Source: a virus. Taken from it: DNA of 64,000 nt. The translations under genes were made by a program, and so were the position numbers. Shown here one piece after another: positions 25,030 through 34,220 of the stretch. The stretch lies in IMG/VR virus record IMGVR_UViG_3300034102_002265, positions 1 to 64,000 of that record; one strand, written 5' to 3'. The notes under the pieces were generated by a model. That model did not search any database and was not told the DNA's origin. It saw only the letters and a program-made list of their open reading frames with translations. The first letter of the stretch is position 1; the number at the start of each line of letters is the position of its first letter.

Positions 25030-25863
25030 TCAACCTATGAGATCAAGTGGTGGTAATTCGTATTCATCCTTAAGTTGTTGTTCCAACTTTTCTATTTCTG
25101 CAACTCCATCATCATAGATTTGTCTTCCATTCAATTGAACTCCACCTGGAAGTAAAACTCCATTGAATTTAATCATATTCTGTCCCCACTGCTTTTTGAT
25201 GAGAGCAGTAAGGTATTTTTTTAACCACCAATCATTATAAAGTTTTGGAGTATCTGATGGGTCTACGATTCGATAACAATCAATAATTACATATTCATTT
25301 TCACCAACTTGCTGCCAGTCTATATCTAAGTATAATTTATGATTTAATTTGTTAAAACGAATTTGTGCATTAGGATTTAAAAGAAAATCCAAATCTTCAA
25401 GATATCTTTTAACCATCGCATAATTAAGGAGGTCTAATGCACCATAATAATAAACATCATTTAAAAATATCTGATATTTAATATTGAAAAGTCCATCAGA
25501 GATGGTACTAGAATTTATTTTTAAGATATTATTTACACCAATAATTGAATCCGGTAATGGAAGATAGTTAACTCCCTCTACATAATTGAGAGAAGTTAAA
25601 CCAACTCCAACAACATCTGAAGAAGATGTTGTTGCGGAACCTACTGGTCCTGGTTGAGCTAATGTTGCTTTAGTTGCAGGAGTAAGTTTGTGTTTTAAAA
25701 ATACACGATCAATACCATCATAATGTCTTTCATGAAAATATTGAATAGCATCATCTACTAAATTATCGATTTGATCATCATCAACATTTATCTCTAATAC
25801 AGGTTTACCCAATTGACGAAGACAATATTCGATTAATTCCTTTCTGTTATTAGGTGATGCCAT
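25030..25863 (-). CDS. 13: gp13 neck protein
   Basis: 277 residues (T4 309). Head-closure neck component. The start MASPNNRKELIEYCLRQLGK and the following INVDDDQIDNLVDDAIQYF are the family hallmark. C-terminal half: WWLKKYLTALIKKQWGQNMI and GVQLNGRQIYDDGVAEIEKL. A late promoter, GATAAATA, lies about 36 bases upstream, back-to-back with the promoter of hldD, so gene 13 starts a new unit after the sugar cassette. Confidence 0.97.
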   Translation of the reverse strand: MASPNNRKELIEYCLRQLGKPVLEINVDDDQIDNLVDDAIQYFHERHYDGIDRVFLKHKLTPATKATLAQPGPVGSATTSSSDVVGVGLTSLNYVEGVNYLPLPDSIIGVNNILKINSSTISDGLFNIKYQIFLNDVYYYGALDLLNYAMVKRYLEDLDFLLNPNAQIRFNKLNHKLYLDIDWQQVGENEYVIIDCYRIVDPSDTPKLYNDWWLKKYLTALIKKQWGQNMIKFNGVLLPGGVQLNGRQIYDDGVAEIEKLEQQLKDEYELPPLDLIG

Positions 25864-25934: not shown

Positions 25935-26729
25935 ATGATTATATTAACAGGATCACAAGGTTTCATTGGAAAAAACTTTCTTTCCACTATTAAAGAGCCT
26001 ATAATAGAAGTGGAAAAGGATAATGCTTTTCGTTTTATATCTGGGTTTAATCAATGGGATCAAGTATCCTTAATTTTACATCAAGGAGCAATATCTTCAA
26101 CGACTGAGAGAAACATTCAAACGTTACATCACAATAATGTTGTCTTTTCTTTGTTTCTTTTTGAAAAAGCAATAGAGCATGGAATATCAGTAAAATATGC
26201 TTCATCAGCATCAGTATATGGAAATCAAACAAAAAAATCAAAAGTCATAAATCCACTAAATTATTATGCAATAACTAAACTTCAAATTGATTATTTTGTC
26301 CAAGATAATATAGAAAAATTTTCGAGTATTCAGGGATTTAGGTACTTTAATGTTTATGGGCAAGGTGAAGATCATAAAGGTGATCAAGCAAGTCCAATCT
26401 CTAAATTCACAAAACAAATTCGTGAATCAGGAAAATTGAACCTCTTCAGAGGATCAGACAAATTTTTAAGAGACTTCATCTGTGTTGAAGATGTTGTTGA
26501 TGTTGTTTTAAATAATAGCCATCCATCAGGAATCTATGATTTGGGAACAGGAAACCCTATTAGTTTTCAAGAAGTTGCAGAATTAGTCTCAGAAAAAGAA
26601 AAAGGGGAAGTCGAATATATCGACTTCCCCGAACATCTTAAAGGTAAATATCAAGATTATACTTGTGCTGACATGAAATGGATTGGTGACTATAAGTTTA
26701 AAACAGTTAGAGAGTATCTCCTTCAATAA
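25935..26729 (+). CDS. hldD: ADP-glycero-manno-heptose 6-epimerase (HldD)
   Basis: 264 residues; converts ADP-D-glycero- to ADP-L-glycero-D-manno-heptose. Short-chain dehydrogenase with the NAD(P) motif GSQGFIG (6-12), the HQGAISSTTE segment like E. coli HEGACSSTTE, catalytic Y111-x3-K115 and K148 in EDHKG, equivalent to the second acid/base of E. coli HldD. RYFNVYGQGEDHKG, LGTG and FPEHLKGKYQDYTCAD match E. coli closely. It is about 45 residues shorter than the bacterial enzyme, mostly by loss in the N-terminal domain. It is the only plus-strand gene in the window and converges on the cupin gene with a 23-base overlap. A minus-strand terminator lies within its codons. No Shine-Dalgarno is visible. 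Confidence 0.93.
   Translation: MIILTGSQGFIGKNFLSTIKEPIIEVEKDNAFRFISGFNQWDQVSLILHQGAISSTTERNIQTLHHNNVVFSLFLFEKAIEHGISVKYASSASVYGNQTKKSKVINPLNYYAITKLQIDYFVQDNIEKFSSIQGFRYFNVYGQGEDHKGDQASPISKFTKQIRESGKLNLFRGSDKFLRDFICVEDVVDVVLNNSHPSGIYDLGTGNPISFQEVAELVSEKEKGEVEYIDFPEHLKGKYQDYTCADMKWIGDYKFKTVREYLLQ
26592..26630 (-). terminator. Terminator of the sugar operon, embedded in hldD
   Basis: Plus strand 604-614 of this kilobase (GGGGAAGTCGA) pairs perfectly with 620-630 (TCGACTTCCCC) around a five-base loop. On the minus strand the stem is followed by TTTTTCTTTTT. It lies 77 bases past the cupin stop and is the natural end of the minus-strand operon. On the plus strand no T run follows, so hldD itself should be read through. 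Confidence 0.9.
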
Positions 26730-27072
26730 TACGAATACTATCACTATCGAAATGTTGAGTTGAGAATTCAAACAACTCAGTATCTTCTAAGGCATACATT
26801 CTATGTCTTAATCCAACAGGAACATGAAAGTTTTGACCCTTTTTAAGGGTCCTTTTTTGTGCCAAATTAATGTCATCATCATACCCATAAAAAAGAATCA
26901 ACATTCCAGACTGCACATAGAATGTCTCATCTTTTATGTTGTGATAATGCCAAGAACACTTTTTCCCTTTTACAAAATATAAAAGTTTTCCACAATATTG
27001 TTCATTGTTTACAATCCATTTTTCAAATCCCCATCCTTTGGGGACAAATTTAATTGAAGAAGTCATCTGCAT
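26707..27072 (-). CDS. Cupin sugar isomerase/epimerase-like protein
   Basis: 121 residues; a single small cupin barrel. The likely metal ligands are H42, H44, E49 and H90 (CSWHYHNIKDETF, HVPVGLRH). PKGWGFEKWIVNNEQYCGKL is typical of mannose-6-phosphate-isomerase-like cupins in cyanobacterial and phage sugar clusters. The substrate is not evident. A ketose-aldose isomerisation in this heptose pathway is possible because no GmhA isomerase is seen nearby. The start overlaps the HAD gene by 23 bases (an alternative ATG two codons in). Last gene of the operon; convergent with hldD. Confidence 0.75.
   Translation of the reverse strand: MQMTSSIKFVPKGWGFEKWIVNNEQYCGKLLYFVKGKKCSWHYHNIKDETFYVQSGMLILFYGYDDDINLAQKRTLKKGQNFHVPVGLRHRMYALEDTELFEFSTQHFDSDSIRIIEGDTL
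26835..26858 (+). terminator. Terminator of hldD, embedded in the cupin gene
   Basis: GACCCTT-TTT-AAGGGTC is followed by CTTTTTTG on the plus strand, about 105 bases past the hldD stop and inside the cupin coding sequence. On the minus strand the stem is followed by AAAAC, not T, so cupin transcription should pass. Confidence 0.75.
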
Positions 27073-27379
27073 TCACCGCTTTGTCATCAATGTACATATC
27101 CCCACTTGGTTTGCCCATGATTAATTCATGATACTTGCATCCCCAATCATCCAATTGTGTTTTTGTTAGATTATAAAAATCCGCATAAGCTAGATTTGAA
27201 TTATCAAGATGTCTTCCCATACCACGAGCAGTAAAGTACTTGATAATATGTCCTTCCTCGTAAAGACGATTGATGGTATCAATACGGTCTAACTTTGGAA
27301 TACTATTATGATAGTAACCATCTTCTCTGCAAATGGGTTTATCACAAATTGTTCCGTCGATATCAATTACATAATTCAT
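27050..27379 (-). CDS. HAD-family phosphatase
   Basis: 109 residues. Nucleophile motif DIDGT at 6-10, a Thr motif in FTARG and a late GKPSGDMYIDDKA acidic motif, so all main HAD motifs are present in a minimal, capless fold. The family includes small phosphatases of capsule and sugar clusters. In this operon it could supply the heptose-1,7-bisphosphate phosphatase step normally done by GmhB, but it lacks GmhB's characteristic DRDGT start and is much shorter. The specific substrate is therefore an inference. It overlaps the kinase gene by 17 bases and the cupin gene by 23. Confidence 0.8.
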   Translation of the reverse strand: MNYVIDIDGTICDKPICREDGYYHNSIPKLDRIDTINRLYEEGHIIKYFTARGMGRHLDNSNLAYADFYNLTKTQLDDWGCKYHELIMGKPSGDMYIDDKAVNADDFFN

Positions 27380-28118
27380 TCACATCTTCCTTTGATAATA
27401 CGTAAGTTCCTGGATATGATACAGCAATTGCGGCCGCCCTATTAGCAATGGGTATTGCTTCCTCTATTCTACCACAATTCAAATATCCGAACACAAGGGC
27501 AGATAAGAAAGTGTCCCCAGCTCCAACAACATCATAAACATTTACTTTTTCTCCCGGATATACTACTCCATTGTATTCAGCACCTTTTGATCCATGAGTG
27601 ATAATGACATTGGAGTTTTTTTCTTCTAACTTTTCATATTCATGTTCATTGATCTTGACATAACAATTGTATGAAGGAAGAATCTTCTTTTTACTGTCAA
27701 TAAATGTGGGACATTTCATGTTATAAACAATCTCAAATAATTTTGAACTCGTTATAAATCCCTTGTCATAATCACTAATTACGACCGCATCATATGGTTC
27801 ATTTGGAATTTCATATTCCATTGGTTTACAAACAACTTCTTCGTCAACTCTAAGAATTTGTTGATTTGTCCTTTCATCAATATAACGTGTCTTAATAATT
27901 TTTTCTTGATTTGTCATCATATAAACTTCAAGACCTAATGCTTTAAGATTGTTATAGACATTCCATGCCATCCCTTGTCTTGTTTCGGTTTTCTTGTAGT
28001 TTAAGATTGGAACAGGTGCTTCTGGATTCAATCGTTTAACTTCTCCATAAACATATTTGTCTATGCAACTATCTCCGATCAATAATACTTTGAATGATTT
28101 TTGTTGAGGAGTATTCAT
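27363..28118 (-). CDS. Heptose 7-phosphate kinase (HldE N-domain as separate gene)
   Basis: 251 residues. PfkB/ribokinase-type kinase matching the N-terminal domain of HldE/RfaE: GDSCIDKYVYGEVKRLNPEA (compare bacterial GD-LDRY-GD-RISPEAPVPV), VISDYDKG and the catalytic GAGDTF at 199-204 with D202 as base. Its role is to phosphorylate D-glycero-D-manno-heptose 7-phosphate at C1. It is about 60 residues shorter than usual; the region after TRQGMAWNVYNNLKALG runs straight into TRYIDERTNQQILRVDEE, so most of the lid and sugar-binding segment is deleted. Its first 50 bases overlap the nucleotidyltransferase gene in another frame. Activity therefore needs testing. Confidence 0.88.
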   Translation of the reverse strand: MNTPQQKSFKVLLIGDSCIDKYVYGEVKRLNPEAPVPILNYKKTETRQGMAWNVYNNLKALGLEVYMMTNQEKIIKTRYIDERTNQQILRVDEEVVCKPMEYEIPNEPYDAVVISDYDKGFITSSKLFEIVYNMKCPTFIDSKKKILPSYNCYVKINEHEYEKLEEKNSNVIITHGSKGAEYNGVVYPGEKVNVYDVVGAGDTFLSALVFGYLNCGRIEEAIPIANRAAAIAVSYPGTYVLSKEDVNELCN

Positions 28119-28470
28119 CTATTCTATCAAAAAAAATTAATCTTTTTGCAAACTGAGATCCAATTACTGGTTTATTTTTCCAATCAGAACCTACTATCAT
28201 TATATCTGGATTGAACCCTTTTATCAATTCTTCCAACTCTTTATCATTAGAAAAAGTCTCAACCTGATCTACAGGTTTTAACATATTCAAGAAAAATCTT
28301 CTTTCATCTTGATTGTGTATTGGTCTAGATGTTCCTTTCTTTTCCTTTACCCGTTCGTCGTCATCAATAGCAACTATTAAATAATCACCATAAGATTTTG
28401 CAAAATTCAAAAGTTGTAAGTGGCCTACATGAAGGACATCAAAGGTTCCATTAACAAATATTTTTTTCAT
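28069..28470 (-). CDS. Heptose 1-phosphate nucleotidyltransferase (HldE C-domain)
   Basis: 133 residues. Nucleotidyltransferase of the cytidylyltransferase family: FVNGTFDVLHVGHLQLLNFA with HVGH at 14-17, RPIHNQDERRFFLN, the GSDW motif and SSTKI at 121-125. It matches the C-terminal half of HldE, which adenylylates heptose-1-phosphate to ADP-heptose. Here it is a stand-alone gene placed before the kinase, the reverse of the bacterial fusion order. The ATG overlaps the carbamoyltransferase stop as ATGA. Confidence 0.92.
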   Translation of the reverse strand: MKKIFVNGTFDVLHVGHLQLLNFAKSYGDYLIVAIDDDERVKEKKGTSRPIHNQDERRFFLNMLKPVDQVETFSNDKELEELIKGFNPDIMIVGSDWKNKPVIGSQFAKRLIFFDRIDEYSSTKIIQSIIDRR

Positions 28471-30161
28471 TCGTTAGGAACTTTAACCAATTTTTGAATT
28501 TCGGGAAGATACATATATTCAATATCACTATTCTGAAGGGTATCAATTGCATCAACAATAGTTTCTACAAGAGGATCTCCGCCAAGATTGAATGAAGTAT
28601 TGAAGAGGATGGGAACATCACTCAATTTTTCAAAAGCATCAATAAGTCTATAATAATGATCATTCTGATCTTTTGTAACCGTTTGAATTCTACAAGTTCC
28701 ATCAACGTGAATTACTGAGGGAATTTTTTCTTCAACGCCAGGTAGACAATCTACAGCATACATCATATGAGGAGATTCTTCTCTTCCAGCAATATCAAAC
28801 CATTCATTCACTTTCTCTTTGAGAATTGTACAAGCAAATGGACGGAAGAACTCACGACGCTTAACTTGGTTTACGAGATCCTTGCCATTTTGAATGGTGG
28901 GATCAAAGAGAATTGAACGATTTCCTAGTGCTCTAGGTCCACCCTCTGAACGACCTTGGAAGATAGTAACAATATTACCATCACGAATAAGTTTTGCTAC
29001 CTCGTTATAAGTTGTGGGTTGAACATCCAGTCCTTCTAAATACTCTTCATAAGTTTCTGGATCATACTGAGGGCCATAATAAATTGAAGACTGTCTTTCA
29101 AATGGAGTTTCCATTTCAGTTATTTGTGCATGAGTATATTTTGCACCACCAATAGATGTTCCTCCATCATGGGAGATTGGTTCGCAGTAAATATTGAGAT
29201 CTGGGAATTCTTTCCAATACTTGTAGTTGGCAACACAATTTAGACCATAACCACCGCAGACAACGATATTAGTTTCACCAGTTTCTTCGTGAGCTTTACG
29301 AATGAGATCAATCATTCGGGTTTCAGTTTCCTTTTGTACTAAGAACGCTAAATCTTTTTGAATTTGAGTGTATTCACCTTTAGAATGATTTTTTACATCT
29401 TCGGAAAGAATATCATATCTTTGGTGATTTATTTTAGACCCATTTGGATAATTGGGTACAAATACTTCACGATTTGCCCACCCATTCCTAAAAAGTTCAG
29501 GAAGATCTTGATTTTCTTTTCCATATGGAGACAATCCCATTGTTTTTCCAGCATCTATGGAAGAAAATCCACAATACTCAGTTACCGCTTCATATGTTTT
29601 TGTTAGTCCTGGATATTCTGTGAGAATATATTTCCCATCCTCATCCAATTTAATAATACCGATACTTTCTTTGGATCCAAAATGTTTGTAAACAGAATCG
29701 AACTCTAATGGATATTTTGCTTTAAATATAGATTCAAATTCGTAAATGACTCCTGGACAAGCATCAGTCTGTAAGAAACTTCCAGCACCATCAGCAATCA
29801 CACACGCTGCAGTTTCAAATCCAGAATTTAAAAATGCACAAGCAGCGTGCATTTCATGATGTTTTGTGTCAATAAAATGAGTTTGATATTCAAATTTCTT
29901 TCTAGAAAGTTTTCTTATCCAACCATGATACAGATCTTCCCCAGTCCAATCTAGTTCAGGTCCGTTTCTATGAGTATGACATATTACTAAATGGTCAATA
30001 TGGTCTACATATTCAAATACTTTTAGTAGTCCTAGAAGTGGACTTCCATCGTGTTTCCAACGAGAAAGTCTTTCCTCTTCAACATAAAAAATTACTTCAC
30101 CATCAATCATCAGAGTTGTGCTTGCATTGTGTCCGCGAGCACAGGAAACAATAATACTCAT
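28467..30161 (-). CDS. NodU/TobZ-family O-carbamoyltransferase
   Basis: 564 residues. Transfers a carbamoyl group from carbamoyl phosphate to a sugar hydroxyl via carbamoyl-adenylate. The N-terminal Kae1-like domain has HHEMHAACAF (101-110) and IADGAGSF. The C-terminal domain has GRSEGGPRALGNRSIL, REFFRPFACTIL and ILFNTSFNLGGDPLVET, all diagnostic. Full length for the family. Related genes are known in T4-like cyanophages. In Pseudomonas aeruginosa a carbamoyltransferase (WapO) modifies the LPS heptose, a relevant precedent for this neighbourhood. Shine-Dalgarno TGAGGT; separated from GT9 by 9 bases. Confidence 0.95.
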   Translation of the reverse strand: MSIIVSCARGHNASTTLMIDGEVIFYVEEERLSRWKHDGSPLLGLLKVFEYVDHIDHLVICHTHRNGPELDWTGEDLYHGWIRKLSRKKFEYQTHFIDTKHHEMHAACAFLNSGFETAACVIADGAGSFLQTDACPGVIYEFESIFKAKYPLEFDSVYKHFGSKESIGIIKLDEDGKYILTEYPGLTKTYEAVTEYCGFSSIDAGKTMGLSPYGKENQDLPELFRNGWANREVFVPNYPNGSKINHQRYDILSEDVKNHSKGEYTQIQKDLAFLVQKETETRMIDLIRKAHEETGETNIVVCGGYGLNCVANYKYWKEFPDLNIYCEPISHDGGTSIGGAKYTHAQITEMETPFERQSSIYYGPQYDPETYEEYLEGLDVQPTTYNEVAKLIRDGNIVTIFQGRSEGGPRALGNRSILFDPTIQNGKDLVNQVKRREFFRPFACTILKEKVNEWFDIAGREESPHMMYAVDCLPGVEEKIPSVIHVDGTCRIQTVTKDQNDHYYRLIDAFEKLSDVPILFNTSFNLGGDPLVETIVDAIDTLQNSDIEYMYLPEIQKLVKVPNE

Positions 30162-30170
30162 AATTTTACC

Positions 30171-31253
30171 TCAATTTTTAATGTCGTTTAATTCCAGAAT
30201 TTGATCAATTGTTTTTTTCTTGGTTGGTTTTGGTTTTTGGAATCCAGGCATTACACTTGGATTTATCGGAAGATTATTTTGACTTGTTCCATTTTTTGAT
30301 ACACCTGATAAATTCAATGTATCATTATTGACCTTACTTACGCCAATTTTATCTTTAATTGATTTGGAAATTTCTTTTATTCTTTCATTACTTAAAATCA
30401 TCAAATCTTCATTATTTCTATCATATTGATCTTCAAAACTTATTCTTATTGGGCTATATTTCCTTCTATTTTTTCCATTATCTACGATATGGAAATTTTT
30501 ATTATTTGGATAGGAAATATTTTCAGGATAAGTTGAACCTATAACTACAGTACTTGGTTTGTTCAATGCATATGCAATGTGTTGACCCATGCTGTCACAT
30601 CCCAGAAAATAGTCGGCAGCATTAATTATACCACCCCATTGTGTAATTGGTACATTCTGAGGACAAGCGACTCCAAGTTTATCCCAATCTGGAATTGGAA
30701 TTTGTGTCATTAAGATGACGCCATAATTTTTCTTCAATTCATCAATAACTTTGTATATATCCGAAAGTTCAAAACTTCTACCTGTGACATCATAAGTAAA
30801 TTTTCCTTCAACTTTTGCAGAACTGCCAAAAGGTTGAAAAACTACAATTTTATCTTTTTTTAGAACTTCTCTTACTTCTTCTACTAGATTATATCCGAAT
30901 ATTTGTTCTTGTTTGTTTAATTCTAAATTAATTTTTTTAGTATCTGGTATATGATTCAGTTCATTGATTAATATATCAAATGCTTGAATCAAATTACACT
31001 CTTGAGTGAAATATGCATTGAGTCTATAGGGTTCTGGACTTACAATTTCCTTATCAAGTAAAAGCGACTCAAATAAATTTTTATGATTAATAGGATAAAC
31101 TTTATCCCTTAGTACTTTACTACAGGAATAAAATTCTCCCCATGATTCGGCAACGACTATAAAATCGTCATGTCTTTTGGCATATTCTTCCAAAGCGGGT
31201 ATGGAACAAAGGACCCTACCCGCACCACCATTGATGAAAAATGCTTTATTCAT
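30171..31253 (-). CDS. GT9-like heptosyltransferase-type glycosyltransferase
   Basis: 360 residues. The N-terminus FFINGGAGRVLCSIPALEEY fits the GT9 pattern G-GD-L-PAL. The C-domain has VVFQPFGSS and WGGIINAADYFLGCDSMGQH followed by AYALNKPSTVVIGST, matching the donor-binding domain of ADP-heptose:LPS heptosyltransferases. The last 50 residues are an unusual Asn/Pro/Lys-rich tail (KPKPTKKKTIDQILELND). It is the first gene of the operon, behind a late promoter (AATAAATA) and Shine-Dalgarno AAAGGTGG. The acceptor is unknown: host LPS, another glycan or a virion protein. Confidence 0.85.
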   Translation of the reverse strand: MNKAFFINGGAGRVLCSIPALEEYAKRHDDFIVVAESWGEFYSCSKVLRDKVYPINHKNLFESLLLDKEIVSPEPYRLNAYFTQECNLIQAFDILINELNHIPDTKKINLELNKQEQIFGYNLVEEVREVLKKDKIVVFQPFGSSAKVEGKFTYDVTGRSFELSDIYKVIDELKKNYGVILMTQIPIPDWDKLGVACPQNVPITQWGGIINAADYFLGCDSMGQHIAYALNKPSTVVIGSTYPENISYPNNKNFHIVDNGKNRRKYSPIRISFEDQYDRNNEDLMILSNERIKEISKSIKDKIGVSKVNNDTLNLSGVSKNGTSQNNLPINPSVMPGFQKPKPTKKKTIDQILELNDIKN

Positions 31254-31295: not shown

Positions 31296-31303
31296 TATTT
31301 ATT
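31296..31303 (-). promoter_or_regulatory. Late promoter AATAAATA for the sugar operon
   Basis: One mismatch to TATAAATA, 43 bases before the GT9 ATG. It implies that the six-gene sugar operon is made late, together with structural proteins. Confidence 0.6.
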
Positions 31304-31332: not shown

Positions 31333-32397
31333 TTATTTAAAGCAAATACAAACCAATCCCATTTTACCAGAACAATCCCCATACATACCAACCGCACCAC
31401 CAAAAGCACTTGAAGGCCAACCACCCGCACTAGGAACTCTTAATCTGCCACAACATGCTTGGTTAGCCGAACCGCAACAGATACCATCATAGAAAACTGT
31501 ACACTGAGACTCGGAAAGGAATCCAAAAACTGGTGGGTGACAGTAACAAGCCGCATTATTATTACCGCAACTGCATAGAGATGAGAACATTCCTTTTATT
31601 CCATATATCGAGCCAACAGGAGATGATCCATAATAATTTGCTCCAGGGGTGAATGGATGAATGCAGCATACGCCAACACCAGTTGCTGACCAACATCCAA
31701 AACTACCTCCCCCACAAACAGCGTATCCACATCCTTGACTACATTTTGATCCAAAATAACAAGAAGATACGGCATATCTGCCATTACATACCATCCACTT
31801 ACCCAGTTCCCCAATACCACCATCTACACAGAAATTGCATAATCCCGGTCCTTGAACGAAGGATTTATCTCCGTCTGGTCTATGGCAACCATATGTACAG
31901 TATGCACAAATTCTTGGAGCACATCCACTATGGATTGTATAAGTTGCTCCAGCTGTTACAGGAATAATAAGTGATGCATATGCACCAGTTCCACCAAAAG
32001 GAGATATAGAACAACACATTCCTCCACTACCAGAACCAGATCCAGCACCCCAAATCTGGAATCTTGCACAAGTTACTCCACTAGGAACAGTCCAAGTACA
32101 ATCCTTACCCTGAGAGAAATATTGATTAACAACACCATCATCCCCACAAACAGTAAATCCACCAGTCCATCCGGAACCAGCTGCTACACAAGACCAAAGA
32201 CTTGTTTGAGCTGGATTTGCTAGTAATGAAGGTTCTATGCACCGAACCCAACAACTATATTCAGGAGTAAACAAACTTGCAGAAACCGCAAGAGCAGTAG
32301 TTTGGGGTCCTTTTACAGCTATGCAAGCGCTCTTTTCGGAAACTTGAGTAGTTAAATAGTCTTTTGCATTTTCTGCACTGTATCTTAATACATCCAT
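31333..32397 (-). CDS. Cys/Gly-rich adhesin-like virion protein, copy 1
   Basis: 354 residues with about 35 cysteines (near 10 percent) and many Gly. A module WTVPSGVTCARFQIWGAG, then PFGGTGAYASLIIPVTAG and long Cys/Gly loops (GCAPRICAYCTYGC, CCGSANQACCG), ends in GLVCICFK. The paralogue at 33105-34220 shares this layout. Similar proteins occur in T4-like cyanophage tail-fibre regions; Gly-rich loops recall T-even gp38-type adhesin tips. Host-range adhesin is the likely role, inferred from location and composition. The cysteines may bind metal or form disulphides outside the cell. Confidence 0.75.
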   Translation of the reverse strand: MDVLRYSAENAKDYLTTQVSEKSACIAVKGPQTTALAVSASLFTPEYSCWVRCIEPSLLANPAQTSLWSCVAAGSGWTGGFTVCGDDGVVNQYFSQGKDCTWTVPSGVTCARFQIWGAGSGSGSGGMCCSISPFGGTGAYASLIIPVTAGATYTIHSGCAPRICAYCTYGCHRPDGDKSFVQGPGLCNFCVDGGIGELGKWMVCNGRYAVSSCYFGSKCSQGCGYAVCGGGSFGCWSATGVGVCCIHPFTPGANYYGSSPVGSIYGIKGMFSSLCSCGNNNAACYCHPPVFGFLSESQCTVFYDGICCGSANQACCGRLRVPSAGGWPSSAFGGAVGMYGDCSGKMGLVCICFK

Positions 32398-32403
32398 GGA
32401 ATT

Positions 32404-33063
32404 TTACTGGTAATTTTTTAGAAGGTCTTGTATTTTTTCAGGAATCGGAAAAACTGATTCAAGAACATTATCAAAATTTGTATATTTCCAACTCATAAAA
32501 TATGGATTTTCTTCTATATACTTATCTATATCTTTTACGACTTCTGAAATTTGATCTAATAAGTCTAAAGAAACATCTTGGTCTTCACCTTTTTCTTTTT
32601 TTCCTTCTTCATTACTTAAAATAAAACCCAATCTATTACGAATAGCAGTTAAATTCAAAGTCACATAATTATCAAGATTATTTTTTGCAATCAGATTTAA
32701 TTTAATTGATTTTAATTCTGAGTCATAAACAGCGTCATAACAATCCAGTAAAGTTGGATTTTTTATTTTTTGATAAATATCTCCATTTTCCATAATCTCC
32801 TCTTCATATTCATATTCATGATTTTCTAAAAGATTTGTCAAATAATAACAAATTTCTGGTTGTTGTTCAGCATTAATTTTGATTAAACTGCAAGAATCAA
32901 CATCGTAATGTTCTGGATTAATGCCATTAATAATGCCAGTAGGGGTGTGAACCAATACATTTATGTATTTTGGTCCATCATAAGTTAAAGAAATTTCTTT
33001 CCCTTCATCAAAAGAATTGATATAAAGTTCATCTGGCATTGGATAGGAAAATGTTTTTATCAT
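32404..33063 (-). CDS. Acidic protein between the two Cys-rich adhesins
   Basis: 219 residues, mixed alpha/beta with an acidic middle (EEGKKEKGEDQDVSLDLLDQ). No Cys-rich segment and no recognised domain. A beta-rich N-terminal half (YPMPDELYINSFDEGKEISL, GPKYINVLVHTPTG) and a helical C-terminus ending in FPIPEKIQDLLKNYQ. Located between, and seven bases upstream of, Cys-rich genes, it may be a fibre-assembly chaperone or an adhesin partner. It has its own late promoter AATAAATA. Confidence 0.65.
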   Translation of the reverse strand: MIKTFSYPMPDELYINSFDEGKEISLTYDGPKYINVLVHTPTGIINGINPEHYDVDSCSLIKINAEQQPEICYYLTNLLENHEYEYEEEIMENGDIYQKIKNPTLLDCYDAVYDSELKSIKLNLIAKNNLDNYVTLNLTAIRNRLGFILSNEEGKKEKGEDQDVSLDLLDQISEVVKDIDKYIEENPYFMSWKYTNFDNVLESVFPIPEKIQDLLKNYQ

Positions 33064-33104: not shown

Positions 33105-34220
33105 TTATTTAAAGCAAACACAAACCATTCCCATTCTACCGGCATCACCACAAATCGATAAACAACCACCAGCAACTTGCATCGCAAAACCACCAGAACC
33201 AGGAAGTAAAAGAGATGCAAGTACTGCACCAAAAGTAGCGCTAGCCGAACAGTAGTTTCCACCACAACTGGTGGAACTACTGAGAGAAAATACGCACTGT
33301 GAAGATGATTCGAATCCATAAATTGGTGGATTTTTGTGATACCCACATTTACAGTAGTGGGCCATACAACTCTCTCCATATGCACCAGCAATACCATAAA
33401 CAGTTCCACCTGTAGCTGAACCATAAGATAATGCTGAAGAATGGTACGCAGGAAGCATCATGTGGGGATTACTTGAAAATCCACTTCCACAACACTGGAT
33501 AGTAGGAACTGCTTCATTGAATGGAGTACTAATCGTTGTAGAACAGAAACTAGATCCAGTACCACAAATGCAATATCCAAGAAATGACTGACAAGTATAT
33601 GCAGGTCTAGCGTCTATAATACCAGTTTTATAATAATAAACATCTCTATCAATCATTTGTTGACAAAGATTTCCTATTCCACCCATGGCACAGAAGTTTG
33701 TTAGTCCAGGCCCAGTGATATAAGAAGCACAACCATTTCCATTACTTATACAGTTCCAACATCCATAACAACATAGAGCGCAACCAGCACAAAGAATATA
33801 TTGACATCCAGCAGTTACAGGCATAATAACTGATGCATAAGCTCCACTTCCACCAAAAGGTGATCCTCCACAACAACCAGCAGCACCAGAAGAACCACCA
33901 GCACCCCAAATCTGGAATCTTGCACAAGTTGCCCCACCAGGCACTGTCCATGTACAAGTAGCTCCACATCTAAAAAATCCAGAAGTATCGCAAACTTTAA
34001 ATCCAGAAGTCCATCCAGAACCAGTCTCTACACAAGCCCACAGTTCTGGTCTAGGAATTTTACCATTAATAATACTAGGAGCATTAGTATTAACAGTGGA
34101 CAAATAAGTGCTACAATTACTATTTAAAGTAGAAATACATGATGTTAAGGTATTATTGCAAGTCCTTAAAGGTTGATTTTGTTTATTTAAGGAGTTGTAT
34201 GCTAAAACGTCTATTGTCAT
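33105..34220 (-). CDS. Cys/Gly-rich adhesin-like virion protein, copy 2
   Basis: 371 residues and about 36 cysteines. The core WTVPGGATCARFQIWGAGGS, PFGGSGAYASVIMPVTAG and GLTNFCAMGGIGN align with copy 1, and it ends in GMVCVCFK. The N-terminal 70 residues (MTIDVLAYNSLNKQNQ, TCNNTLTSCISTLNS) are probably a helical attachment segment unlike copy 1. Shine-Dalgarno GAGGG. Duplicated and diverged adhesins next to a large fibre gene are typical of phage host-range loci. Confidence 0.75.
   Translation of the reverse strand: MTIDVLAYNSLNKQNQPLRTCNNTLTSCISTLNSNCSTYLSTVNTNAPSIINGKIPRPELWACVETGSGWTSGFKVCDTSGFFRCGATCTWTVPGGATCARFQIWGAGGSSGAAGCCGGSPFGGSGAYASVIMPVTAGCQYILCAGCALCCYGCWNCISNGNGCASYITGPGLTNFCAMGGIGNLCQQMIDRDVYYYKTGIIDARPAYTCQSFLGYCICGTGSSFCSTTISTPFNEAVPTIQCCGSGFSSNPHMMLPAYHSSALSYGSATGGTVYGIAGAYGESCMAHYCKCGYHKNPPIYGFESSSQCVFSLSSSTSCGGNYCSASATFGAVLASLLLPGSGGFAMQVAGGCLSICGDAGRMGMVCVCFK

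Follow-up and report, generated by a model that had tools for sequence, protein, structure and literature searches.

A viral heptose and carbamoylation cassette as a candidate system for glycosylating Cys-rich tail proteins

Seven genes at positions 25935 to 31253 of the IMG/VR virus record IMGVR_UViG_3300034102_002265, from a virus of ocean cyanobacteria (76.7 kb, of which positions 1 to 64,000 were analysed and are called the window here), form a cassette which may be a late-expressed virion-glycosylation system acting on the phage's own Cys-rich tail proteins and not on the host lipopolysaccharide (LPS), a reading to which we give an even chance. In the proposed scheme a cupin would isomerise sedoheptulose-7-phosphate to D-glycero-D-manno-heptose-7-phosphate in the place of GmhA, a kinase would add a 1-phosphate to the heptose-7-phosphate, a HAD phosphatase would take off the 7-phosphate, an adenylyltransferase would form ADP-heptose and HldD would epimerise it. 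A GT9-fold glycosyltransferase (GT) would then transfer the heptose to Cys/Gly-rich tail proteins encoded just upstream and, as a likely finish, a NodU-type enzyme would O-carbamoylate the transferred sugar. Such a decoration might serve adsorption or protect the tail. The phage perhaps brings its own ADP-heptose supply because the studied marine Synechococcus LPS has no heptose; a preliminary description of this DNA had given such LPS as reported to lack heptose and 3-deoxy-D-manno-octulosonic acid (Kdo), and this is indeed stated for strains WH8102 and CC9311 in the part of PMC4515613 drawn on here.

All seven open reading frames (ORFs) are open and intact, with the bounds first given for them. 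At the DNA level only two phage-collection records were matched by megablast, in one piece each and over 12% and 5% of the query, and in tblastn searches the kinase, GT, NodU and HldD proteins all four have cyanophage matches. The cassette and its surroundings are as follows.

25030-25863: gp13 neck gene (PHROG head-tail adaptor Ad2, 4e-47)
25935-26729, plus strand: HldD-like ADP-heptose 6-epimerase, convergent to the other six genes, an optional part of the donor module (heptose_epim 2.5e-64)
26707-27072, minus strand: cupin, proposed sedoheptulose-7-phosphate isomerase replacing GmhA (Cupin_2 3.2e-7)
27050-27379, minus strand: HAD phosphatase (EcbF/BcbF-like), proposed heptose-1,7-bisphosphate 7-phosphatase in the GmhB role (EcbF-BcbF 3.1e-7)
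27363-28118, minus strand: HldE-type heptose-7-phosphate kinase (PfkB), shortened (rfaE_dom_I 2e-41)
28069-28470, minus strand: HldE-type heptose-1-phosphate adenylyltransferase, overlapping the kinase start (rfaE_dom_II 1.6e-31)
28467-30161, minus strand: NodU/TobZ-type O-carbamoyltransferase (Carbam_trans_C 9.3e-59, Carbam_trans_N 5.5e-22)
30171-31253, minus strand: glycosyltransferase of predicted GT9 fold, GGxGRV variant, first gene of the proposed late operon
31296-31302, minus strand: ATAAATA, matching the core of T4-type late promoters, 43 bp upstream of the GT
31333-32397, minus strand: Cys/Gly-rich tail-region protein, proposed acceptor (35 Cys in 354 amino acids)
32404-33063, minus strand: 219-amino-acid ORF between both Cys-rich genes (weak PHROG match, 1.5e-5; 3 Cys)
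33105-34220, minus strand: second Cys/Gly-rich tail-region protein, proposed acceptor (36 Cys in 371 amino acids; homologues in 7 phage records)

The transferase and its Cys-rich neighbours

Virion decoration is favoured because the transferase is linked to Cys-rich tail-region ORFs and not to the heptose genes, and so, of the three fates first suggested for the heptose (a block to superinfection, a changed host envelope for release, a decorated virion), the last is preferred, and the findings have no bearing on the first two. Related loci came from scans with the kinase, the GT or the cupin, the best 80 being taken per profile scan. In 85 of 92 loci an ORF both Cys-rich (at least 7%) and Gly-rich (at least 10%) shares the strand of the GT and is no more than 4 kb away from it, as is the case in 26 of the 28 loci without a visible kinase; no such ORF was found within 6 kb of the kinase in any of 40 kinase loci without a GT. 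When Cys-dense ORFs are defined as those of at least 150 amino acids that have 10 or more Cys per 100 residues, one stands within 5 kb in 90/91 GT loci versus 1/44 kinase loci without a GT. Kinases and GTs were clustered by identity because related contigs are not independent, and the 187 GT loci held contig repeats before this was done. With distant GTs added, and a cluster counted positive if any member has a Cys-dense ORF within 5 kb, the linkage holds in 91/97, 57/62 and 11/14 clusters at 90, 70 and 50% identity. In this larger set Cys-dense ORFs make up 305 of the 983 ORFs of that length within 2.5 kb of a GT, 74 of the 1125 at a greater distance in these loci and 3 of 1369 where there is no GT.

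Named phages behave in the same way. In the 36.8-kb fibre-neck region, five GT-positive cyanophages carry 2 to 4 Cys-dense ORFs each (5/5) and eight GT-negative T4-like cyanophages carry none (0/146 ORFs of at least 150 amino acids), the absence of the GT from these eight having been checked genome-wide with two GT-positive genomes matched as a control. Among these GT-negative phages is S-SCSM2R, whose gp13 is 77% identical to that of the window and whose adhesin locus is a swapped one, a 4.1-kb adhesin-like gene and a 10.2-kb exoprotein/adhesin-like gene (PQ898602, 87252-101622) standing in the place of the Cys-rich genes and the cassette. The Vibrio phages D505, K479 and SBP1 and the Aeromonas phage HJ05 have a Cys-dense gene (10-13 Cys per 100) adjacent to the GT, the only one among the genes examined. 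Neither the kinase profile nor the cupin profile found anything in these four genomes, though both do match other records; Vibrio and Aeromonas hosts make heptose-containing LPS, and these phages would use the host ADP-heptose. The two window Cys-rich proteins are paralogues (40% identical). The Cys-rich partners overall form several groups, between which no BLASTP match is better than E 0.02, and fast-evolving fibres could hide their common descent. The virion proteomics in the portion of Sullivan 2010 used here (PMC3037559) is silent on Cys-rich proteins in virions, because the phages concerned were S-SM1, together with data for S-PM2 and Syn9.

Other enzymes are found around the same transferase. 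Two GT-NodU loci without heptose genes (L120, 7990-9163; L150, 3650-4348) have a ferredoxin-dependent bilin reductase downstream of NodU, the former with a heme oxygenase in addition and a T4-type neck gene farther on. In L177 (12759-15985) four 2-oxoglutarate (2OG)-Fe(II) oxygenases follow GT-NodU, others are contained in the S-SSM7 and Sf-FS3 cassettes, and that of S-SSM7 includes a tryptophan halogenase. Oxygenases and halogenase near the cassette are possible further tail-protein modifications.

By sequence the GT has no significant match in the PDB and scores 19.5 bits against the Pfam PF01075 (GT9) cut-off of 22. Its AF2 model (pLDDT 83) was aligned by VIA-align to the GT9 protein 3tov with Z 22.2 (root-mean-square deviation 3.6, 275 aligned), to WaaF 1psw with 20.9, to TibC 4rap with 20.2 and to WaaC with 18.8. 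GT9 and TibC entries range from Z 22.2 to 18.6, among which stand plant NDH-complex chains at 19.5-18.9, and the best UDP-GlcNAc epimerase/GT-B rows reach 12.1; on the model, the GT is assigned to the GT9 fold. In an hhalign comparison with E. coli GT9 proteins its GGAGRV loop aligns to VGDM of WaaF, which puts an Arg at the position of the catalytic Asp13, and every phage GT that was aligned (17, 18 and 10 rows) has the Arg. The motif with Arg is present in 181/181 GT proteins having a readable motif, a constancy which among the IMG/VR loci is partly built in because the GT scans used patterns including GGxGR, and also in 4/4 Vibrio and Aeromonas GTs, found by tblastn independently of the motif patterns; a single-query GT scan with the Aeromonas protein gave no match. 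The C-terminal donor-side motif CDSxGxH is largely retained. In TibC it is D110 that is held to be the catalytic base, in the part of PMC4358343 consulted. The alignments indicate that the GT, first described as GT9-like, is not a standard heptosyltransferase, its catalytic Asp being replaced by Arg.

In NodU both Carbam_trans domains score over the Pfam cut-off (198.2 and 79.1 bits), and its profile finds the PDB carbamoyltransferase 7xb6 (5.7e-75) and TobZ (8.6e-64). H101, H105, D124 and D332, candidate metal-site residues, are invariant in 12/12 sequences.

Late expression, suggested at the outset, seems likely from the ATAAATA core 43 bp upstream of the GT. The window has 21 such cores on the virion-gene strand, 14 of them in the stretches 10-75 bp ahead of gene starts, which amount to 4.4% of the window; on both strands together there are 24, fewer than the shuffle mean of 33.7. 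Among related loci the core precedes the GT in 38/123, NodU in 0/126, the adenylyltransferase in 0/153, the kinase in 0/148, HAD in 0/119, the cupin in 1/130 and HldD in 2/107. Since it precedes the GT and hardly the other cassette genes, the GT probably starts a late operon.

Two modules and the donor enzymes

Conservation in related phages, which the preliminary description had asked to see, is clear. P-SSM2, S-CAM1 and S-CAM3 have the identical order of GT, NodU, adenylyltransferase, kinase, HAD, cupin and inverted HldD; in S-SSM7 and Sf-FS3 this set is interrupted by 2OG-Fe(II) oxygenases and further inserted genes, and lies one gene from gp13; and the exact seven-gene order recurs in 33 of 202 non-redundant loci (257 before redundancy removal). 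These orders, with the kinase-locus counts below, rule out a scattered, non-conserved set, and the cassette is not a chance one because its order is conserved and its catalytic residues are invariant in many phages (12 to 21 sequences being aligned for each protein, with alignments A1-A7 omitting truncated or near-identical rows such as L001, L009, L015 and L025). A position between adhesins and neck genes had been described, and the first half of this holds, the set following Cys-rich ORFs, but neck genes come next only in some phages: in the window, S-SSM7 and Sf-FS3 they do, and in P-SSM2, S-CAM1 and S-CAM3 further fibre genes follow instead. Neck or terminase genes were seen in 26 of 72 loci in a gp13-gp17 test which used window proteins as queries and limited flanks.

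The seven genes are two separable modules, a donor module of adenylyltransferase, kinase, HAD and cupin, with HldD optional, and the GT usually with NodU. For 90 flanked kinases (at least 6 kb on either side) the partners are the adenylyltransferase in 90, cupin in 90, HAD in 82, HldD in 63, GT in 50 and NodU in 49; the whole cassette is held by 44 loci, only adenylyltransferase, kinase, HAD and cupin by 24, and these four together by 82. NodU is present in 48 of the 50 that have a GT. The cupin accompanies 40/40 kinases of the kinase-fetched subset and 73/73, 48/48 and 17/17 kinase cluster representatives at 90, 70 and 50% identity (HAD: 15/17 at 50%), and conversely the kinase is found in 79/82 flanked cupin loci. 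In S-SM2 and P-TIM68 another LPS-type cluster contains all five donor genes, without GT and NodU, and Sf-CH8 and S-T4 have adenylyltransferase, kinase, HAD and cupin (the last by profile), with no HldD homologue annotated beside them.

The families first named for these proteins hold, although the Hld proteins fall under the NCBIfam equivalog cut-offs and the GT9 match under that of Pfam. HldD has 217.4 bits against 274.6 for TIGR02197, which is nevertheless its best-scoring family, and its profile finds E. coli HldD (1eq2) at 4.6e-59. Y111 (the Tyr of Y-x3-K) and K148 (GEDHKG motif) are invariant in 18/18 and K115 nearly so; in the alignment with 1eq2 the first two stand for the catalytic positions Y140 (YxxxK Tyr) and K178 (second-site Lys of the GHKG motif) of the E. 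coli enzyme, which are thus kept. The kinase scores 142.1 bits in three stretches, with the TIGR02198 cut-off at 345. Its closest solved relative is Burkholderia HldA 4e84 (4.3e-27, the next being 1.6e-11), of which an internal stretch is not present in the window kinase, and D202 of the GAGDTF motif is invariant in 19/19. For the adenylyltransferase the score is 109 bits (TIGR02199 cut-off 181.5), the best among its families, and H14-x-G16-H17 is invariant in 18/18. The HAD profile finds PDB 9iqw (6.5e-16) and 1xpj (6e-13), with D6, D8, T50, K90, D98 and D99 invariant in 18/18; the GmhB family TIGR00213 was found in 0/16 records, the HAD present instead belonging to the EcbF/BcbF group. Kinase ORFs of about 380 amino acids, with no separate adenylyltransferase ORF called, were noticed in L141 (15167-16318), L146 (12594-13736) and L178 (15320-16462); L141 retains an adenylyltransferase domain match, and from their sequences the three are probably an HldE-like fusion.

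The cupin as candidate for the GmhA step

Bacteria go from sedoheptulose-7-phosphate to ADP-heptose with four enzymes, GmhA, kinase, GmhB and adenylyltransferase. The minimal phage donor set likewise has four, adenylyltransferase, kinase, HAD and cupin, and fits the four steps only if the cupin replaces GmhA. An ADP-heptose-type pathway as first described is supported, but the GmhA listed for it is not among the seven genes, and the GmhA family (TIGR00441) was found in 0/16 plus 0/4 records, nine complete named phage genomes included, with a positive E. coli control. Window-type kinases are carried by 17 of these 20 records; of the other three, L234 has only the cupin in its locus, and in MT838225 (a 5.5-kb fragment) and LR756501 (735 kb) the sole kinase match is distant, at 26% identity. 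Since these last two have neither GmhA nor the cupin, distant-kinase phages are uninformative on the GmhA question.

The missing step is a ketose-aldose isomerisation giving the manno configuration. After one uncharacterised cupin, the profile of the phage cupin matches the D-lyxose isomerase 2y0o (6.6e-4) and the D-lyxose/D-mannose isomerase 7nzo (9.8e-4), with the L-ribose isomerase 5avp also among the matches, and H42, H44, K47, E49 and H90 align with TsLI H75, H77, K86, E88 and H143, the residues of the proposed enediol mechanism and metal site in the sections of PMC8378251 cited here. These five are invariant in 22/22 sequences, down to 33% identity, and the motif is present in 202 of 206 cupin domains, the exceptions being one cut short, one with the Glu lost and two of another type. 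Against Pfam PF07385 the cupin scores 14.6 bits, under the cut-off of 20.8, and a weak match (E at most 0.1) is found in 21/21 members. The AF2 model (pLDDT 94) is a cupin fold whose structural neighbours are lyxose isomerases and phosphomannose isomerase, and also CapF (presumably an epimerase), KdgF and Pac13; the fold alone is indecisive because the Foldseek and VIA-align lists single out no isomerase. Taking active site and gene company together, the cupin is proposed to act as sedoheptulose-7-phosphate isomerase in GmhA's place, which predicts a second phosphoheptose isomerase, unrelated to GmhA.

A cysteine dioxygenase acting on the Cys-rich proteins was also considered for the cupin and rejected. 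The cysteine dioxygenase metal site has three His and no Glu, whereas the Glu ligand is retained here (E49, 22/22), and the cupin occurs as well in the kinase loci without GT, where Cys/Gly-rich ORFs are absent from the surrounding 6 kb (0/40).

Elsewhere, in L134 (13375-13746), which has a GT but no kinase, the Glu of the cupin metal site is gone, as if constraint had been relaxed without the pathway. Homologues 60-67% identical to the phage cupin turned up at eleven loci (L258-L268), all in contigs of metagenome-assembled genomes; these genomes are assigned to archaea and to several groups of bacteria, with no cyanobacterium among them, and the loci are possibly misbinned phage DNA.

Weighing the readings

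Several findings count against the virion-glycosylation scheme. No Cys-dense ORF lies within 5 kb in 6/97 GT clusters at 90% identity (L132, with one about 7 kb off, L302, L308, L316, L325 and L339) and in 3/14 at 50%. GT loci without a kinase in the contig exist (10/12 tested, on fragments), so the GT donor may not be ADP-heptose everywhere, and the linkage of GT with Cys-rich genes could come from shared descent of the fibre locus. On the enzyme side the Hld proteins, the GT and the lyxose-isomerase match of the cupin all score under curated family cut-offs, the best PDB matches of the adenylyltransferase profile are named cytidylyltransferases (3elb, 5x9q, 1coz), the L234 contig has a cupin without a kinase in the locus, and cupin folds are promiscuous, CapF, KdgF and Pac13 fitting the model as well as lyxose isomerase does.

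An alternative that we find possible if doubtful relies on shared fibre-locus ancestry, by which the Cys link would carry no information on the acceptor residue; the Cys-rich proteins would be adhesins stabilised by disulfides or metal, and Ser/Thr of these or of another tail protein would be what the GT modifies. It is at ease with the Cys-dense stretches being ordinary in Ser plus Thr (15-22 per 100, from a comparison of 14 proteins) and with the GT clusters that have no Cys-dense ORF, but less so with the partners of unrelated phages being dissimilar in sequence yet Cys-dense, and with GT-negative cyanophages having no such ORF in the same region. At the other extreme, and with little confidence, the GGxGRV transferases may be suggested to be a new family of tail-protein S-glycosyltransferases, placing heptose on many cysteines of the Cys-dense adhesins, the lost catalytic Asp reflecting a thiol acceptor and the heptose coming, where hosts lack it, from the phage pathway with the cupin for GmhA. 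If this joint claim is true, what marks the system in unrelated phages would be how dense in Cys a tail protein is, whatever its sequence.

Modification of the host surface, which has been proposed for cyanophage 'LPS genes' and would here mean that heptose or carbamoyl-heptose is added to the LPS or capsule of the infected cell and blocks superinfection or helps release, we hold to be rather unlikely. The core heptose of P. aeruginosa is O-carbamoylated, and the donor module does also occur in LPS-type clusters with several glycosyltransferases (P-TIM68, Sf-CH8, S-T4) and with other sugar genes in S-SM2. However, the GT tracks Cys-rich ORFs even where heptose genes are not seen, the seven cassette proteins include no flippase or ligase, and the WH8102 and CC9311 LPS has no heptose in the account cited above (PMC4515613). 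That the nucleotide heptose is itself the end product, as a soluble metabolite or decoy, or that the cassette is filler DNA without function, appears very unlikely; in the part of Sullivan 2010 seen (PMC3037559) it was left open whether the cyanophage 'LPS genes' function or are filler, but filler sits badly with the invariant catalytic residues and with the constancy of cupin and HAD across kinase clusters at 50% identity. Carbamoylation by NodU of a hydroxymethylated base, after the manner of the 5-hydroxymethylcytosine carbamoyltransferase described in eLife 2021 (PMC8670742, in part), is highly improbable for this cassette. The enzyme superfamily is the same, and in S-RIM44 (KX349294, 193924-195512) and Sf-FP1 (PV340854, 196656-198286) a gene for thymidylate synthase is overlapped or adjoined by a carbamoyltransferase match; here, in contrast, NodU accompanies the GT and the cassette has no thymidylate synthase-like protein, with which, in that same source, the DNA-linked enzyme co-occurs. 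By analogy with 5-carbamoyloxymethylcytosine, the S-RIM44 and Sf-FP1 pairing is a candidate DNA modification separate from the cassette.

Parts of the cassette are already in print as 'LPS genes': in the passages of Sullivan 2010 at hand (PMC3037559) T4-GCs 304, 305, 307 and 308 co-occur with three others in P-SSM2, S-SM2 and S-SSM7, and in those of PMC7378029 SynMITS9220M01 is reported with heptose-LPS genes. A search of the open-licence PMC literature gave no report of a cupin GmhA or of a GT/Cys-rich link, which is not proof of absence. With virion glycosylation as the favoured reading, the genes whose role was left open in 2010 gain a specific and testable one. Two misleading database labels are also corrected, 'phosphoheptose isomerase' (phrog_1238, on the HAD) and 'cysteine dioxygenase' (phrog_7851, on the cupin), which fit neither protein and are repeated in RefSeq cyanophage records. 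If true, this reading would make tail-fibre glycosylation a widespread trait of aquatic phages, for which a single transferase and a single signature of composition would suffice as genomic markers.

Compared with the bacterial ADP-heptose pathway (GmhA, HldE, GmhB, HldD), the kinase, adenylyltransferase, phosphatase class and epimerase of the phage are homologous or analogous, whereas the GmhA and GmhB families were not found, HldE is split, the order is reversed and a cupin goes with the kinase. With the D-lyxose/D-mannose isomerase cupins (YdaE, TsLI, E. coli O157 3kmh) the phage cupin has in common the metal tetrad, the catalytic Lys and the YCxK and KxETF neighbourhoods; it is shorter, at about 120 amino acids versus 171-223 in the solved chains, and its proposed substrate is a heptulose phosphate. 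NodU resembles the NodU/TobZ O-carbamoyltransferases in both domains and in the candidate metal-site residues, and it is usually, not always, found with the GT. The TibC/Aah autotransporter heptosyltransferases share with the GT a GT9-like fold, the proposed ADP-heptose donor and the proposed adjoining adhesin acceptor, and differ in the catalytic Asp (D110 of TibC in the portion of PMC4358343 cited), for which the phage family has Arg by the WaaF alignment. The closest known system is in P-SSM2, where PSSM2_307-313 (T4-GC 302-308) are the same seven genes in the same order beside similar Cys-rich ORFs, annotated piecemeal as 'hypothetical', 'phosphoheptose isomerase' and 'cysteine dioxygenase'.

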